Shown in pieces: positions 58,918-64,000 of a stretch of DNA of 64,000 nt. A program made the position numbers and the translations under genes. This stretch comes from Leptotrichia sp. oral taxon 212 (GTDB lineage: Bacteria > Fusobacteriota > Fusobacteriia > Fusobacteriales > Leptotrichiaceae), in the NCBI RefSeq assembly GCF_001274535.1, contig NZ_CP012410.1, positions 841,126 through 905,125 of the forward strand, written 5' to 3'. A model generated the notes under the pieces. It saw only the letters and a list, made by a program, of their open reading frames with translations, was not told the DNA's origin and ran no database searches. The first letter of the stretch is position 1, and every line of letters starts with the position of its first letter.

Positions 58918-59015
58918 TAATGTTAACTGGAAGCATCATATTTATTTTTAATGTGTAGATTAATAATAAAAATAAATAAAATGGCTGTCAAATGCCAAAA
59001 AAATTATAATGACTA

Positions 59016-59043
59016 TTGATTATAAGAAAAAATGTGATAAAAT
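59016..59043 (+). promoter_or_regulatory. ridA promoter
   Basis: TTGATT (59016-59021) and TAAAAT (59038-59043) are 16 bases apart, with TGA before the -10 box (extended -10). Confidence 0.5.
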
Positions 59044-59084
59044 AATAGAAGAAAAACAAATTTAAAAATCTTGGAGGTAAAAAA

Positions 59085-59447
59085 ATGAAAAAAATTCCTG
59101 AGGCAGTAGGGCCTTATTCAGCCTACAGATTAGTAGGAGATTATTTATATATCTCGGGACAGTTAGGGATAAACCCTGAAACTCAAGCGATTGACTCTGA
59201 TACAGTAGAAGGGCAGGCAAAACAGGCACTTGAAAATATGAAGGCAATTCTTGAGAATAACGGATTGACAATGAATAATGTCATAAAAACGACAGTATTG
59301 CTTGATAATATTGTAGACTTTGTAGCTGTAAATAAAATTTATGCTGAATATTTTGAAGCACCTTATCCGGCAAGATCAGCTTTTGAAGTTGGTAAACTTC
59401 CTAAAGAAGGACTTGTTGAAATAGAAGCAATTGCTTACGTAAAATAA
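59085..59447 (+). CDS. ridA: RidA-family enamine/imine deaminase
   Basis: A 120-residue RidA protein with AVGPYSAYRLVGDYLYISGQLG, NNVIKTTVLLDNI, the catalytic Arg in YPARSAFEVG and the closing EIEAIAYVK. It hydrolyses reactive 2-aminoacrylate-type imines formed by PLP enzymes, including cysteine lyases. GGAGG lies before the ATG. It sits next to the sulfur amino acid locus but has its own promoter and terminator. Confidence 0.96.
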   Translation: MKKIPEAVGPYSAYRLVGDYLYISGQLGINPETQAIDSDTVEGQAKQALENMKAILENNGLTMNNVIKTTVLLDNIVDFVAVNKIYAEYFEAPYPARSAFEVGKLPKEGLVEIEAIAYVK

Positions 59448-59467
59448 AAATTTATATTATAATGTCA

Positions 59468-59503
59468 AAACCTCTTATATATAAAATATATGGGAGGTTT
59501 AAT
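59468..59503 (+). terminator. Probable ridA terminator
   Basis: AAACCTC (59468-59474) pairs with GAGGTTT (59494-59500), with AT-rich inner pairing. The T run is short, so strength is doubtful. Confidence 0.45.
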
Positions 59504-59512
59504 ATATTATAT

Positions 59513-59541
59513 TTGAAATTAATTTATAAATTTAGTATAAT
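59513..59541 (+). promoter_or_regulatory. Promoter of the leader peptide and sulfur-uptake operon
   Basis: TTGAAA (59513-59518) and TATAAT (59536-59541) with 17 bases between them. Transcription would start near 59548, about 45 bases before the leader ORF. Confidence 0.75.
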
Positions 59542-59591
59542 CAATTTAGTAAAATTGAAATAAAAAATATAACTAAAAATGGAGGAAAAAA

Positions 59592-59636
59592 ATGAAAAGA
59601 TTTAGAGAATCAATGTGTTGCTATATGAAATTGTAA
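59592..59636 (+). CDS. Cys-Cys leader peptide of an attenuator
   Basis: GGAGGA (59581-59586) precedes ATG 59592 by 5 bases and the frame encodes MKRFRESMCCYMKL, then TAA. It has adjacent Cys codons TGT-TGC (59616-59621) and three Met codons in 14. Two hairpins follow before the amidohydrolase and Met-type transporter genes. Such arrangements let ribosome speed at rare charged tRNAs choose between terminator and antiterminator. Cys (or Met) would be the sensed amino acid. It is not long enough to be a functional protein in the usual sense. Confidence 0.7.
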   Translation: MKRFRESMCCYMKL

Positions 59637-59660
59637 GTTTGCTGCTTAATGTTATTGATA

Positions 59661-59702
59661 GTTAGGTGCAAGCTTATTTGTGTTTATATAGCTGCACCTG
59701 AC
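59661..59702 (+). promoter_or_regulatory. Leader hairpin 1 (possible pause or antiterminator stem)
   Basis: GTT-AGGTGC-(A)-AGC (59661-59673) pairs with GCT-GCACCT-GAC (59691-59702), about 12 pairs with one bulged A and a 17-base loop. It has no T run, so it is not itself a terminator. Confidence 0.65.
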
Positions 59703-59726
59703 AACTCTAAATTTTAAATGATATAT

Positions 59727-59763
59727 GAGCTTTCAGGTAATATAATGAAAGCTCTTTTATTTT
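59727..59763 (+). terminator. Leader terminator (attenuator)
   Basis: GAGCTTTCA (59727-59735) pairs perfectly with TGAAAGCTC (59746-59754), loop of ten bases, then TTTTATTTT. It lies between the leader ORF and the first structural gene with no other promoter of note in between. Confidence 0.85.
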
Positions 59764-59840
59764 GAAAAAAAGTTGTGGCTATATAGAATCAAATTTATTA
59801 TAGTATAAGTTATTAAGTGATTGTTGAAAGGAGATACTAA

Positions 59841-60992
59841 ATGAGAGAAAAAGAAGATTTACAGGAAATTCTTGAAAAAGAATTTAAATGGTTTCATAAA
59901 AATCCTGAGTTATCCTTTGAAGAATATGAAACAACAAAAAGGATTAAAGAAATTTTGAAAAGAGAAAACATTGAAATACTGGATATTCCTTTGAAAACAG
60001 GAGTAGTTGCAATAGTAAGAGGAAAAGAAGAAGGACCTGTCATTGCAGTTAGAGGTGATATTGATGCTCTTCCTATACAGGAAGAAACAGATTTAAGCTA
60101 CAAATCTAGAGTAAAAGGGAAAATGCATGCATGTGGACACGATTATCATCTGACATCAATTATAGGAACAGCAATTTTACTAAGAGATAATGCTGATAAA
60201 ATAAAAGGTACCGTTAAACTAATTTTTCAGCCTGCAGAAGAAATATTTTCGGGAGCCCTGCATATAATAGAAAGTGGAGTATTAGATGATGTGAATTTAA
60301 TTTTTGGAATTCATTGTACAAGAGAGTTTCCATTGGGAACAGTGGGAATTCGTAAAGGAAGTGTATCAGCGGCTGTTGACAGATTTAAGATTGAATTAAA
60401 AGGTTTTGGAACTCATGCGGCACATCCTGAATTAGGAAAAGATCCAATTGTAGCAGGAAGCACTCTTGTAAATTCTTTACAAACAATAATCAGTAGAAAT
60501 ATAAATCCATTTTCAGTTGGATTAATAAGTGTGACCCATTTTTCATCAGGAAATACATGGAATGTGATACCTGAAGCAGCTTTTATTGAAGGAACAGTCA
60601 GAACATTGGATAAAAATCAGAGAAAATTTATTAAAGAAAGAATTTATGATGTTGCCAAATATATTTCAGAGGCTTATCAGATTAAAGAAGAAATAGAATG
60701 GATTACAGGACCGCCGGCAGCTGATAATAATGAAGAGTGGAGTGAATTTGCAAAAAAAGTTGCTAAAAAGAGAAATTTGATTGTAGAATCTTCCGTGAAA
60801 ACACTTGGAGGAAAAGATTTCGCATTTTATCAGGAGAAAATAAAAGGGGTATTTATTCATATAGGAACGGATAAATCATATCCTAATCATCACCCAAAGT
60901 TTAAGATTAATCCAAAAGCCTTATCCTTAACATCAGGATTTCTGGCAGAGCTTTTATTAAAGGCAACAAATGAACTAAACGAAGAGAAATAA
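59841..60992 (+). CDS. M20 amidohydrolase (YxeP/N-acyl-amino acid deacylase type)
   Basis: The M20D motifs are RGDIDALPIQEET, HACGHDYHLT (metal ligands) and QPAEEIFSGA, with the dimerisation domain in the middle. In Bacillus subtilis relatives of this family remove acetyl groups from N-acetyl-cysteine-type compounds in sulfur operons; others are hippurate or aminoacyl hydrolases. The neighbouring Met/Cys transporter and the Cys leader favour a sulfur-compound deacylase (inference). AAAGGAG lies 9 bases before the ATG. Length 383 residues. Confidence 0.88.
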   Translation: MREKEDLQEILEKEFKWFHKNPELSFEEYETTKRIKEILKRENIEILDIPLKTGVVAIVRGKEEGPVIAVRGDIDALPIQEETDLSYKSRVKGKMHACGHDYHLTSIIGTAILLRDNADKIKGTVKLIFQPAEEIFSGALHIIESGVLDDVNLIFGIHCTREFPLGTVGIRKGSVSAAVDRFKIELKGFGTHAAHPELGKDPIVAGSTLVNSLQTIISRNINPFSVGLISVTHFSSGNTWNVIPEAAFIEGTVRTLDKNQRKFIKERIYDVAKYISEAYQIKEEIEWITGPPAADNNEEWSEFAKKVAKKRNLIVESSVKTLGGKDFAFYQEKIKGVFIHIGTDKSYPNHHPKFKINPKALSLTSGFLAELLLKATNELNEEK

Positions 60993-61083
60993 ACAGACTG
61001 TAATATATAGTAAAAAAGATTATTTATAATAATGAAAAAATTAAATTAATTTATAAAAAATAAAATATATATGGAGGTAAAAA

Positions 61084-61914
61084 ATGAAAAGAAGATTATT
61101 AACAGTAGTTTCAGCAATATTAGTATTATTTGTGGTGGCAAGTTGCGGAAAGAAAAACGGAACGGATACAGGTAATGGTTCAGATAAAAAGATTGTAAAG
61201 TATGGTAAGGCAGCAGGACCTTATACAGTATTATTTGAACAGGCTATTATCCCAATTTTGGAAAAAAAGGGATATAAATTTGAAGTTGTTGAATTTTCAG
61301 ATTTATTGCAAAATGATACAGCTTTAAACGAAGGTGATATAGATGTCAATGTAGAACAGCATACAGCATATATGAACAATTTTAATGAATCTCAGAAAGG
61401 TAATTTAGTTGCCTTGACACCTATTCCGACAGTTCCAGCAGGTATTTTTTCAAGTAAACATAAAAGTCTTAATGAATTAAAAAACGGAGCGAAAATTGCA
61501 ATACCTAGTGATGCATCGAATGCTGCAAGAGGTTATGCTCTTTTACAGAAAGCAGGATGGATAAAATTGAATGAAAATGTAGAAATTGCAAAAGCGACTC
61601 AAAAGGATATAAAGGAAAATCCTCATAAATTAGAAATAGTTGAAATGGATTCATCAAATATTCCACGTTCGCTAGATGACTTTGATTTTGCGGTTATTCC
61701 AGGAAGTATAGTTTATAATGCAGGGATAGATGCTTCTACAGTACTTTTACAGGAAAATATCCTACCGCATCTGCTTTTACAGGTTGTTGTAAAAAAAGGT
61801 AATGAAAATAGTGAGTGGGCAAAAGCTATAGTAGAAGCTTATCATTCAGATGAATTTAAAAAATATCTGGATGAAAATAATAAGGGATTATGGTTTGTTC
61901 CTGAAAATAAATAG
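61084..61914 (+). CDS. metQ: MetQ/NlpA-family substrate-binding lipoprotein
   Basis: The signal peptide ends in a lipobox VASC (Cys21), so the protein is lipid-anchored. The domain starts IVKYGKAAGPYTVLFEQ and has VVEFSDLLQNDTALNEGDIDVN, VEQHTAYM and IAIPSDASNAARGYALLQKAGW, typical of NlpA. It binds methionine or a related sulfur amino acid or derivative such as cystine. It is followed by metN and metI with a long hairpin in between. Confidence 0.93.
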   Translation: MKRRLLTVVSAILVLFVVASCGKKNGTDTGNGSDKKIVKYGKAAGPYTVLFEQAIIPILEKKGYKFEVVEFSDLLQNDTALNEGDIDVNVEQHTAYMNNFNESQKGNLVALTPIPTVPAGIFSSKHKSLNELKNGAKIAIPSDASNAARGYALLQKAGWIKLNENVEIAKATQKDIKENPHKLEIVEMDSSNIPRSLDDFDFAVIPGSIVYNAGIDASTVLLQENILPHLLLQVVVKKGNENSEWAKAIVEAYHSDEFKKYLDENNKGLWFVPENK

Positions 61915-61947
61915 GAAATTAAATAAAATGAGAATATAATGACTAAA

Positions 61948-62006
61948 TAGAACATGATCTTTAAATCTGAAAAATTTTGTTTATAATGATTTTAGGTCGT
62001 GTTCTA
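61948..62006 (+). other. Long hairpin between metQ and metN
   Basis: TAGAACATGATC (61948-61959) pairs imperfectly, with G-T wobbles, with GGTCGTGTTCTA (61995-62006). A second inner segment TTTAAATC/GATTTTAG adds to it. Only TTTT follows. It could reduce read-through or protect the metQ message so that more binding protein than transporter is made. Confidence 0.55.
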
Positions 62007-62042
62007 AATTTTAAAAAGAACCCAAGGAAAGGAAAAAAGACA

Positions 62043-63059
62043 GTGATTGAAATTTTAAATGTTGAAAAAGTATTTAAAAACAAAAAATCAGAAGTTCATG
62101 CTTTAAGAAATGTTTCTTTAAAGGTAGAAAAAGGAGATATTTTTGGAATAGTTGGATATTCCGGTGCTGGTAAATCAACTTTGTTACGTCTAGTAAATTT
62201 GCTTGAAAAACCTACTAGTGGAAGTGTAAAAATAGAAGAAAGAGAAATTATAAATTTATCAGAAAAAGAACTTAACATATTAAGAAAAAATATAGGAATG
62301 GTTTTTCAGCAATTTAATTTGCTGGAATCACAGACAGTCTATCAAAATTTAAAAATACCTCTTATAATTTCTGAGACTCCTAAAAATAGCATAGATAAGA
62401 GGATAGAAGAATTACTTGATTTTGTTGGGCTGAAAGATAAGAAAAATTCATCTGTTTCAAAACTTTCAGGAGGTCAGAAACAAAGAATAGGTATAGCTAG
62501 AGCATTAGCTACACATCCAAAAATTCTTCTTTGCGATGAAGCTACAAGTGCTCTTGATCCGAAAACTACAAAGTCTATTCTTCAATTACTGAAAAAAATA
62601 AATAATGAATTTGGTATTACAATACTTCTCATTACTCATGAAATGGAAGTAGTAAAGGAAATATGCAATAAGGTGGCTGTAATGCAGGATGGCGAAATAA
62701 AGGAACAGGGAAATATTATTGAAATTTTTACAAATCCTCAGGAGAATATTACAAAAAACTTTATAAGTTCAATTATTAATAACAATATACCTGAATCTTT
62801 AAAAGAAGAACTGGATTTAAACCTGCCTGTTGTAAAATTGACATTTCTGGGAGAAAAATCTGGGCAACCTTTAATATCTGAAATAAACAAAAAATTTGAT
62901 ATAAGTACAAAAATATTATCTGCATCAGTAAATGAACTTAGTAATACTATATTAGGAGTTCTTGTTGTACAGCTTGAAGGAAATCCAGCAATTATAAATG
63001 AAGTTGAGGAGTTTATAAAAAATAGAGGAGTAAAAATTGAAAGGATGGAAATAATATGA
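62043..63059 (+). CDS. metN: MetN-type methionine ABC transporter ATP-binding protein
   Basis: Walker A GYSGAGKST, Q-loop FQQFNLLESQTV, signature LSGGQKQRIGIARAL and Walker B LLCDEATSALD. Residues about 265-339 form the NIL regulatory domain that binds the amino acid and shuts the transporter. I chose GTG 62043, giving the usual MIEILNVEKVF start behind AAAGGAA; a frame to 61977 overlaps the hairpin. It overlaps metI by four bases. Confidence 0.94.
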   Translation: MIEILNVEKVFKNKKSEVHALRNVSLKVEKGDIFGIVGYSGAGKSTLLRLVNLLEKPTSGSVKIEEREIINLSEKELNILRKNIGMVFQQFNLLESQTVYQNLKIPLIISETPKNSIDKRIEELLDFVGLKDKKNSSVSKLSGGQKQRIGIARALATHPKILLCDEATSALDPKTTKSILQLLKKINNEFGITILLITHEMEVVKEICNKVAVMQDGEIKEQGNIIEIFTNPQENITKNFISSIINNNIPESLKEELDLNLPVVKLTFLGEKSGQPLISEINKKFDISTKILSASVNELSNTILGVLVVQLEGNPAIINEVEEFIKNRGVKIERMEII

Positions 63060-63724
63060 TTGAAAAATGGTTGAATATAACTTCGGACAAATTAATGACA
63101 TCAGCAATACAGACTGTTTATATGGTGGGATGGTCACTGTTTTTTGGAGCCTTCATTGGAATACCTCTTGGGCTTATACTTGTTTTAACAAGAAAAGGAG
63201 GATTGAGAGAAAATAAAATTGTATATTTTATTATAAATACAGCGGTTAATCTTGTACGTTCAGTTCCTTTTATAATATTACTTGTATTTATAGCACCTTT
63301 GACTAAAATTATTGTAGGAACAAGAATTGGTACAAATGCGGCAATTGTTCCTCTCGTATTCTTTATATCTCCTTATTTGTCAAGGTTGATAGAAAGTTCT
63401 CTTCTAGAAGTTAAACCTGGAATTTTAGAAGCCGCTAAAGCAATGGGAGCCAATACATGGCAAATAATAATATATTTTTTACTACCGGAAGCCAAAGCTT
63501 CTTTAATCCTTTCGTTTACAACAGGAACAATTGGTCTATTAGGAGCAACAGCTATGGCCGGAACAATTGGCGGTGGTGGAGTAGGAGATTTGGCTCTTAC
63601 TTATGGATATCAGCGATTTAATAATACTTTGATGTTTGTAACTGTAATTATTCTTATAATAATAGTTCAGTCTATACAGTCGTTTGGTAACTGGATTGCT
63701 GCAAGAATAAGAGAAAATAACTAA
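63056..63724 (+). CDS. metI: MetI-type ABC transporter permease
   Basis: Five membrane segments in 222 residues. The family motifs NLVRSVPFIILLV and KPGILEAAKAMGANTWQII (coupling helix EAA loop) are present, with ATAMAGTIGGGGVGDLAL near the end. It forms the channel of the MetNIQ importer. ATG lies in the metN stop. Confidence 0.95.
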   Translation: MIEKWLNITSDKLMTSAIQTVYMVGWSLFFGAFIGIPLGLILVLTRKGGLRENKIVYFIINTAVNLVRSVPFIILLVFIAPLTKIIVGTRIGTNAAIVPLVFFISPYLSRLIESSLLEVKPGILEAAKAMGANTWQIIIYFLLPEAKASLILSFTTGTIGLLGATAMAGTIGGGGVGDLALTYGYQRFNNTLMFVTVIILIIIVQSIQSFGNWIAARIRENN

Positions 63725-63773
63725 TGGGTCTGTCTCAAAAAGAAAACTTAAAAATTAATGTGAAAAACTATAT

Positions 63774-63824
63774 ATGGTCTTTAAACTTAAAAATAAAATT
63801 ATAGAGTTTAGAGATCATTTTTTT
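63774..63824 (+). terminator. Terminator of the sulfur-uptake operon
   Basis: A 14-pair stem (with two G-T pairs) between ATGGTCTTTAAACT (63774-63787) and AGTTTAGAGATCAT (63805-63818) is followed by T7. Confidence 0.85.
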
Positions 63825-63957
63825 GTATCACATAAAATTTGCATTTAGAACAAGAATATATATGAGTAATAAAATTTAAAAAGATTTCTATATATAAAAA
63901 AAACTTCAAAAAAAAGATTAATATAACGGAATTAAAAGGAATTGATATTATTTTTTC

Positions 63958-63986
63958 TTGCAAAGTTCTAAGGAATTTAGTAAAAT
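63958..63986 (+). promoter_or_regulatory. Candidate promoter for a gene beyond the window
   Basis: TTGCAA (63958-63963) and TAAAAT (63981-63986) are 17 bases apart. The bases 63825-63957 hold no gene that I can see. Confidence 0.5.
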
Positions 63987-64000
63987 GTAATTGATTATTC

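Follow-up and report, generated by a model that had tools for sequence, protein, structure and literature searches.

In the classical attenuator of the his operon, a leader peptide precedes a chain of RNA arms, A to F, in which the pairings B:C and D:E alternate with C:D and E:F. The T-box riboswitch combines a single RNA architecture with an exchangeable specifier codon, controls synthetases, biosynthesis and transport, and binds the tRNA directly. His attenuators are known in some Firmicutes lineages (PMC9413887, PMC2965389). Attenuators with Cys codons are known too: in Rhodobacterales, ribosome-mediated attenuation was proposed for uORFC-8-2, in which tandem Cys codons lie before cysS (PMC8632094), and mycobacteria have polycysteine leaderless sORFs (Canestrari 2020, cited in PMC13236596); for the mycobacterial cys leaders, no conserved terminator hairpin was found (PMC1262725). 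Besides, the trpB motif was described as a strong riboswitch candidate associated with varied genes in Firmicutes and Fusobacteria, the source paper leaving room for a classic attenuator (PMC11109978). This motif is the Rfam family RF04312 (SRC-39-1), with over 900 published representatives.

The locus studied here lies in a stretch of 64,000 nucleotides from Leptotrichia sp. oral taxon 212, hereafter the window, and its features are on the forward strand. With considerable confidence, the leader at 59548-59765 can be read as a predicted ribosome-mediated transcription attenuator of an M20-MetQNI operon, belonging to a family in which one RNA scaffold carries exchangeable codons. A sigma-70-type promoter (TTGAAA, 17 nt, TATAAT; 59513-59541), matching the consensus at 11 of 12 positions and being the top promoter-like site within 59000-64000, is predicted upstream of a Shine-Dalgarno (SD) site (GGAGGA, 59581-59586; an SD is found in nearly all relatives) and of a 14-codon ORF, MKRFRESMCCYMKL, which runs from its ATG at 59592 to its stop codon ending at 59636. 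Tandem Cys codons, TGT TGC (59616-59621), lie 22 and 19 nt upstream of the core of arm B (TGTAAGTTTGCTGCTTA, 59632-59648), and the MC pair keeps its position in the Leptotrichiaceae relatives. Arm B overlaps the leader stop codon, so that a ribosome sitting at the stop would mask this arm. Further downstream, arm C (59661-59676) has arm B or arm D as alternative partners, and arm D (59685-59707) pairs either with C, in the hairpin 59661-59702, or, through 59696-59707, with arm E (59727-59738), which is also the 5' side of a predicted intrinsic terminator. The terminator stem (59727-59735/59746-59754) is closed by arm F (59746-59754) and followed by a T tract (59755-59763). The promoter, GGAGGA, 14-codon ORF, TGT-TGC pair, hairpin and terminator (59727-59763) listed in the preliminary description were all found again in the sequence.

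The first gene of the operon encodes an M20 family amidohydrolase (59841-60992; TIGR01891 above cut-off, PF01546). It is followed by genes for a MetQ/NlpA-family lipoprotein (61084-61914; PF03180, Lipoprotein_9; NF008285 below cut-off), a MetN-like ABC ATPase (62043-63059, with a GTG start chosen from the profile match; TIGR02314 below cut-off, PF09383 NIL domain) and a MetI-like ABC permease (63056-63724; NF008049 below cut-off). For M20, the operon composition proposed earlier stands; for the other three genes, NCBIfam gives MetQ, MetN and MetI as best names, all under curated cut-offs, the families being confirmed by the Pfam Lipoprotein_9 and NIL matches. In the Rfam scan of the window, no family reached its gathering score and known riboswitches, including SAM, were unmatched; the T-box model was unmatched in a permissive scan of the leader, in which microRNA and CRISPR-repeat matches were attributed to chance. 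The sole match that did not look like chance was to RF04312, at 31.5 bits, under its gathering score of 59.

As seen from the sequence and from duplex energies, four helices compete along the leader, B:C / C:D / D:E / E:F. The B:C duplex joins 59632-59648 to part of 59656-59680 at -14.9 kcal/mol, and the C:D and E:F duplexes amount to -20.9 and -13.7 kcal/mol, respectively. The preliminary description could draw no strong antiterminator; this is superseded by the D:E pairing of ACCTGACAACTC (59696-59707) with the terminator arm GAGCTTTCAGGT (59727-59738), at -11.3 kcal/mol. Across the scaffold family, antiterminator and terminator helices are mutually exclusive in sequence, energy and covariation, and terminators were found in 135 members. 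In the family alignment, 97-99% of the cells are paired for B:C and 82% for C:D; despite having arm C in common, the two helices are conserved and covary, and their double changes exceed shuffles and slid controls on nearly all measures. The mean energy of D:E is -10.8 kcal/mol for cognate arms versus -7.5 kcal/mol with partners exchanged (0 of 20,000 permutations), and -7.2 kcal/mol when the exchange is made between classes; kinship may inflate this difference, as relatedness among the sequences can inflate the covariation and the codon match reported below.

We infer ribosome stalling, a control of termination and a Cys signal, possibly Cys plus Met, which would operate as follows. When Cys-tRNA is short, a ribosome would stall at TGT-TGC and leave arm B free to capture C, releasing D to pair with E; once D:E is formed, the terminator would be blocked and the M20-MetQNI genes transcribed. 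When Cys is plentiful, the ribosome would reach the stop codon inside arm B and mask this arm, C would pair with D, and E:F would terminate transcription. If the leader is left untranslated, the ORF would itself pair with D and the terminator would form; indeed, the 5' part of the ORF (59596-59607) pairs with 59705-59715 in the MFE fold, a helix that covaries in relatives. Folding, suggested in the preliminary description as a check, gave a divided answer. The 293-nt leader is strongly structured, being more stable than 200 of 200 dinucleotide shuffles (z = -4.8), but masking the ORF up to the Cys codons still yields C:D and the terminator as the MFE, i.e., an equilibrium fold without a switch. 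The proposed switch must therefore be kinetic, depending on the order of folding. The same masking gives B:C in two relatives, the symporter copy of genome G020 and the sulfate-transporter copy of genome G003.

Leptotrichiaceae copies were found by DNA search together with a peptide pattern (MKx.FR..MC). DNA similarity with the full leader consisted mostly of AT-rich promoter and SD matches, and the strict pattern, which found few members, also returned two chance matches (L065, L069). The Cys-type leaders detected number only six, and some of these have just one Cys codon. The relatives retain the ORF, the MC pair and all arms ahead of sulfur genes. With MCC, MCCC or MC and the same competing arms, MRKFRELMCCCMKL (G020) precedes an SDF-family symporter, MKNIFRGTMCYMML (G003) the binding protein of a sulfate ABC transporter (NF008022 at 404 bits, cut-off 288), MKRFREAMCMS (L074, G020:C1:1162431) MetN, and MENKINIINYNMCMCSRRV (G026) a NIR/SIR-family reductase (PF01077; sulfite/nitrite-reductase family). 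A further leader, MKRFRESMCSHRC, precedes a polar amino acid permease whose best NCBIfam name, cystine permease, is below cut-off. The conservation to be expected from the preliminary description was thus observed in these relatives but is missing at the G016 ortholog of the window M20 gene (82% identity), where no such leader was found. The arms, MC codons and sulfur neighbours of the relatives lend strong support to the class of mechanism then proposed, in which a leader peptide attenuates an operon for sulfur amino acids.

The genome of the window also holds a His-codon paralogue, MKRFREAMHHHR (L064:5933-6110, G000:C1), about 75 kb downstream of the window element, in which MHHHR replaces MCC on the same RNA before a polar amino acid ABC operon. 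This operon continues into MetN-MetI-MetQ-like genes, and an M20 gene 46% identical to that of the window lies immediately upstream. At L074, the MKRFREAMCMS leader has one added base; the RNA stretch GTCATAGGTA is kept and the frame shifted, the His-Arg codons of relatives becoming Ser-stop, which amounts to a natural frame change in the sensor region. At L061:4979-5430 (G020), a shortened, apparently decayed MetN frame follows the Cys leader, the symporter and a gene for a RimK-type ATP-grasp protein.

Covariance models R1, R2 and R3 were then run against 98 Fusobacteriota genomes. R3 matched in 63 of them at E <= 0.3, some of these matches presumably being due to chance, and the window element, itself an R3 seed, scored 37 bits (E 0.016). 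Opposite-strand R3 hits at true members, due to the palindromic hairpin, and six loci with no convincing leader (L116, L117, L135, L152, L157, L382) were left out of the member count. No copy was obtained with R3 at E <= 0.3 in the 13 genomes of genus g6 (G005-G017); the scaffold is common around this genus, which suggests a loss. The codons of the leaders vary with the operon. Pro leaders (QPIPPR, NPMVP) precede PutP, an Asn leader (NNNNNN) AsnA, a Tyr leader (RYYYYYL) TyrS and a Thr leader (HTTTT) ThrS; Met leaders (MMMM) precede MetN, MetG, MetY, MetE and homoserine dehydrogenase, and His leaders (HHHHH) HisZ and a polar amino acid SBP, while a Trp leader (FWWWP) stands before an NSS-type sodium-dependent transporter and a Trp/Tyr leader (SWYWY) before DAHP synthase. 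Curated NCBIfam cut-offs are passed by PutP, AsnA, TyrS, ThrS, MetG, MetY, MetE, homoserine dehydrogenase, DAHP synthase and Asd; HisZ, MetA and the tested MetN copies are under them. The MetA of L395 has a leader, MNTPYVTVNKPNMMMYMCMRV, that the automatic caller overlooked.

This agreement was quantified on genes whose amino acid could be named beforehand, each gene class being represented by a single locus in each genus. Among the 29 resulting cases, the residue most enriched in the leader agreed with the gene in 25 (24 prior to the manual fix of leaders with a wrong best-scoring start), a count that none of 100,000 permutations reached, the highest being 17. The matches count the G020 MKRFREAMCMS-MetN pair as Met, though this leader is treated here as Cys-type, and the misses include the Cys-type sulfate leader, scored Met. 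Among hits outside the model seeds, the match was 11/14 (12/14 after correction). One predicted scaffold serves His, Trp, Pro, Met, Asn, Tyr, Thr and Cys genes, the sensor codons alone being exchanged.

Some members have unusual surroundings. At L140:1501-2149 (G075), a Thr/Ile leader, MFRLTITTTIIIM, with its terminator precedes an element resembling a glycine riboswitch (RF03166; its 95 bits fall short of the gathering score, 110) and then aspartate-semialdehyde dehydrogenase; as two switches may follow one another here, Thr/Ile is less directly linked to Asd. The aromatic-codon-rich leader MSLRKVRAMFWFMYYFKTKVCI (L377, G037:C2:44316-44398) lies with the scaffold before a glycerol-dehydrogenase-like gene. 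In G044, which belongs to the second Fusobacteriota family (f2), a Trp-type leader, MFKIKFTWQSWYFED (L372, G044:C8:2338-2424), resembling the WQSW form of Lactobacillales, precedes a dipeptide/GsiB-like binding protein.

Irrespective of the amino acid, the last sensor codon lies 11-14 nt upstream of arm B in 99 of 126 leaders, some of the outliers being due to a wrongly picked TTTG in MMMMLW leaders. In the window, the distances to arm B are -22 and -19 for the Cys codons, -16 for Tyr and -13 for Met12, so that a Met codon holds the usual place of the last sensor. The signal might then be Met, or Met and Cys jointly, with the ribosome waiting at ATG codon 12 and the Cys codons secondary, a reading that we regard as unlikely even though other scaffold members have their last sensor codons at -11 to -14, the ATG at -13 is common to the Cys-type copies of the window, G020 and G003, and the window operon has MetQNI-like genes. 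Indeed, Met-specific members use runs of three to five Met codons (MMMMLW, MMMYMR), and Met8 also occurs in the His-codon paralogue MHHHR, thus being part of the scaffold there. It is Cys that is added in tandem (MCC, MCCC, MCMC), and the leaders to which it was added precede sulfate-transporter and sulfite/nitrite-reductase-family genes. In the His-codon relatives, including the paralogue of the same genome, positions -20 to -14 from arm B are taken by the His codons. The cysteine signal put forward in the preliminary description is thus favoured by the repeated Cys codons and the sulfur-gene neighbours and weakened by the place of the Met codon; Cys is likely the amino acid sensed by the window leader.

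The layout of RF04312, a hairpin and a terminator with an antiterminator sequence on the right side of the hairpin, is found in the window, and the listed Fusobacteriota members score 36-50 bits against this family, below the gathering score of 59. Five Streptococcus loci above that score, all preceding trpB or a TrpX-type gene, have an SD-led ORF, e.g., MKSFTSTNWQSWRL, just upstream of the Rfam model; the trpB-motif pattern search that found them also returned L161 and L167, which are unrelated. In Lactobacillales, sampled as the order of one of these Streptococcus genomes, RF04312 matched at E <= 0.01 in 237 of 395 genomes. An SD-led ORF was present in 89 of the 90 hits inspected (40% in shuffled sequence), with Trp within its last nine residues in 87 of them (3% in shuffled sequence), and the TrpX and TrpB genes next to the motif were NCBIfam-confirmed. 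Most simply, the trpB motif would be a Trp leader-peptide attenuator. Conversely, R3, which has Fusobacteriota seeds only, gave just 18-26 bits at Lactobacillales trpB sites, with 16 of 17 hits correctly placed. The scaffold and the Lactobacillales trpB motif likely share descent, and the scaffold family would include RF04312 or be closely akin to it.

The publication of the trpB motif as a strong riboswitch candidate (PMC11109978), together with the strong structure and conserved loop letters of the RNA, would suit a ligand-binding riboswitch in which the small ORF is incidental. This is very improbable, since nearly all copies have an SD-led ORF, the codons vary with the operon while the core RNA is constant, the sensor codon keeps a fixed distance to arm B, and known riboswitches are unmatched at the window locus in the Rfam scan. 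Even less credible is a nascent-peptide arrest, in which a free metabolite would make the conserved MKRFRE-MC peptide stall the ribosome. Leptotrichiaceae do conserve the N-terminal residues well, but this is explained by the pairing of their codons with 59705-59715 in a helix that covaries; other genera have an unrelated N-terminus, and the frame-shifted MKRFREAMCMS preserves the RNA and not the end of the peptide.

Returning to leader-peptide attenuation, we lean on balance towards a joint reading in which Fusobacteriota possess one scaffold of common descent, a counterpart of the T-box recoded for eight amino acids and shared with the Lactobacillales trpB motif, and in which the Cys copy of the window arose from a His-type copy in Leptotrichiaceae by a change of sensor codons, the RNA being kept. 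A whole phylum may thereby control synthetases, biosynthesis and transport via one codon-exchangeable leader-peptide switch, and a Trp leader peptide offers the orphan trpB motif a mechanism open to direct test. Leaders whose codons have been exchanged in nature can serve as specificity mutants, through which the determinants of attenuator specificity and the evolution of new specificities become directly testable.

Compared with the described systems, the window element shares with the trpB motif the C:D hairpin and terminator, the conserved AGAUAC..UUUU core and an upstream leader ORF, which has Trp codons in the Lactobacillales copies of the motif, but it scores below gathering, and the motif was published as a riboswitch candidate without an ORF. 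In the literature searched, no report was found that the trpB motif has a leader ORF or that Fusobacteriota share a codon-exchanged scaffold. Like the window leader, uORFC-8-2 has tandem Cys codons in a leader ORF for which attenuation was proposed; it differs in phylum and gene and apparently also in RNA. The mycobacterial sORFs likewise use Cys codons to sense the cysteine supply ahead of sulfur genes, whereas the window leader has a predicted intrinsic terminator and antiterminator. With the his attenuator, it has in common a leader ORF with sensor codons, the alternation of B:C/D:E with C:D/E:F and an intrinsic terminator; the Rfam scan gave no match that would tie its sequence to the proteobacterial his leader, and, in contrast to that system, the homologous-looking core of the window family serves many amino acids, Cys replacing His. 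Leader-peptide attenuation as such is already known; the novelty appears to lie in a scaffold spanning the phylum, with swappable codons, that also accounts for trpB. In this respect the family resembles the T-box, a single RNA architecture whose specifier codon is swapped among amino acids, except that the T-box itself binds the tRNA, whereas in the scaffold family a ribosome would read the codons of the leader ORF.
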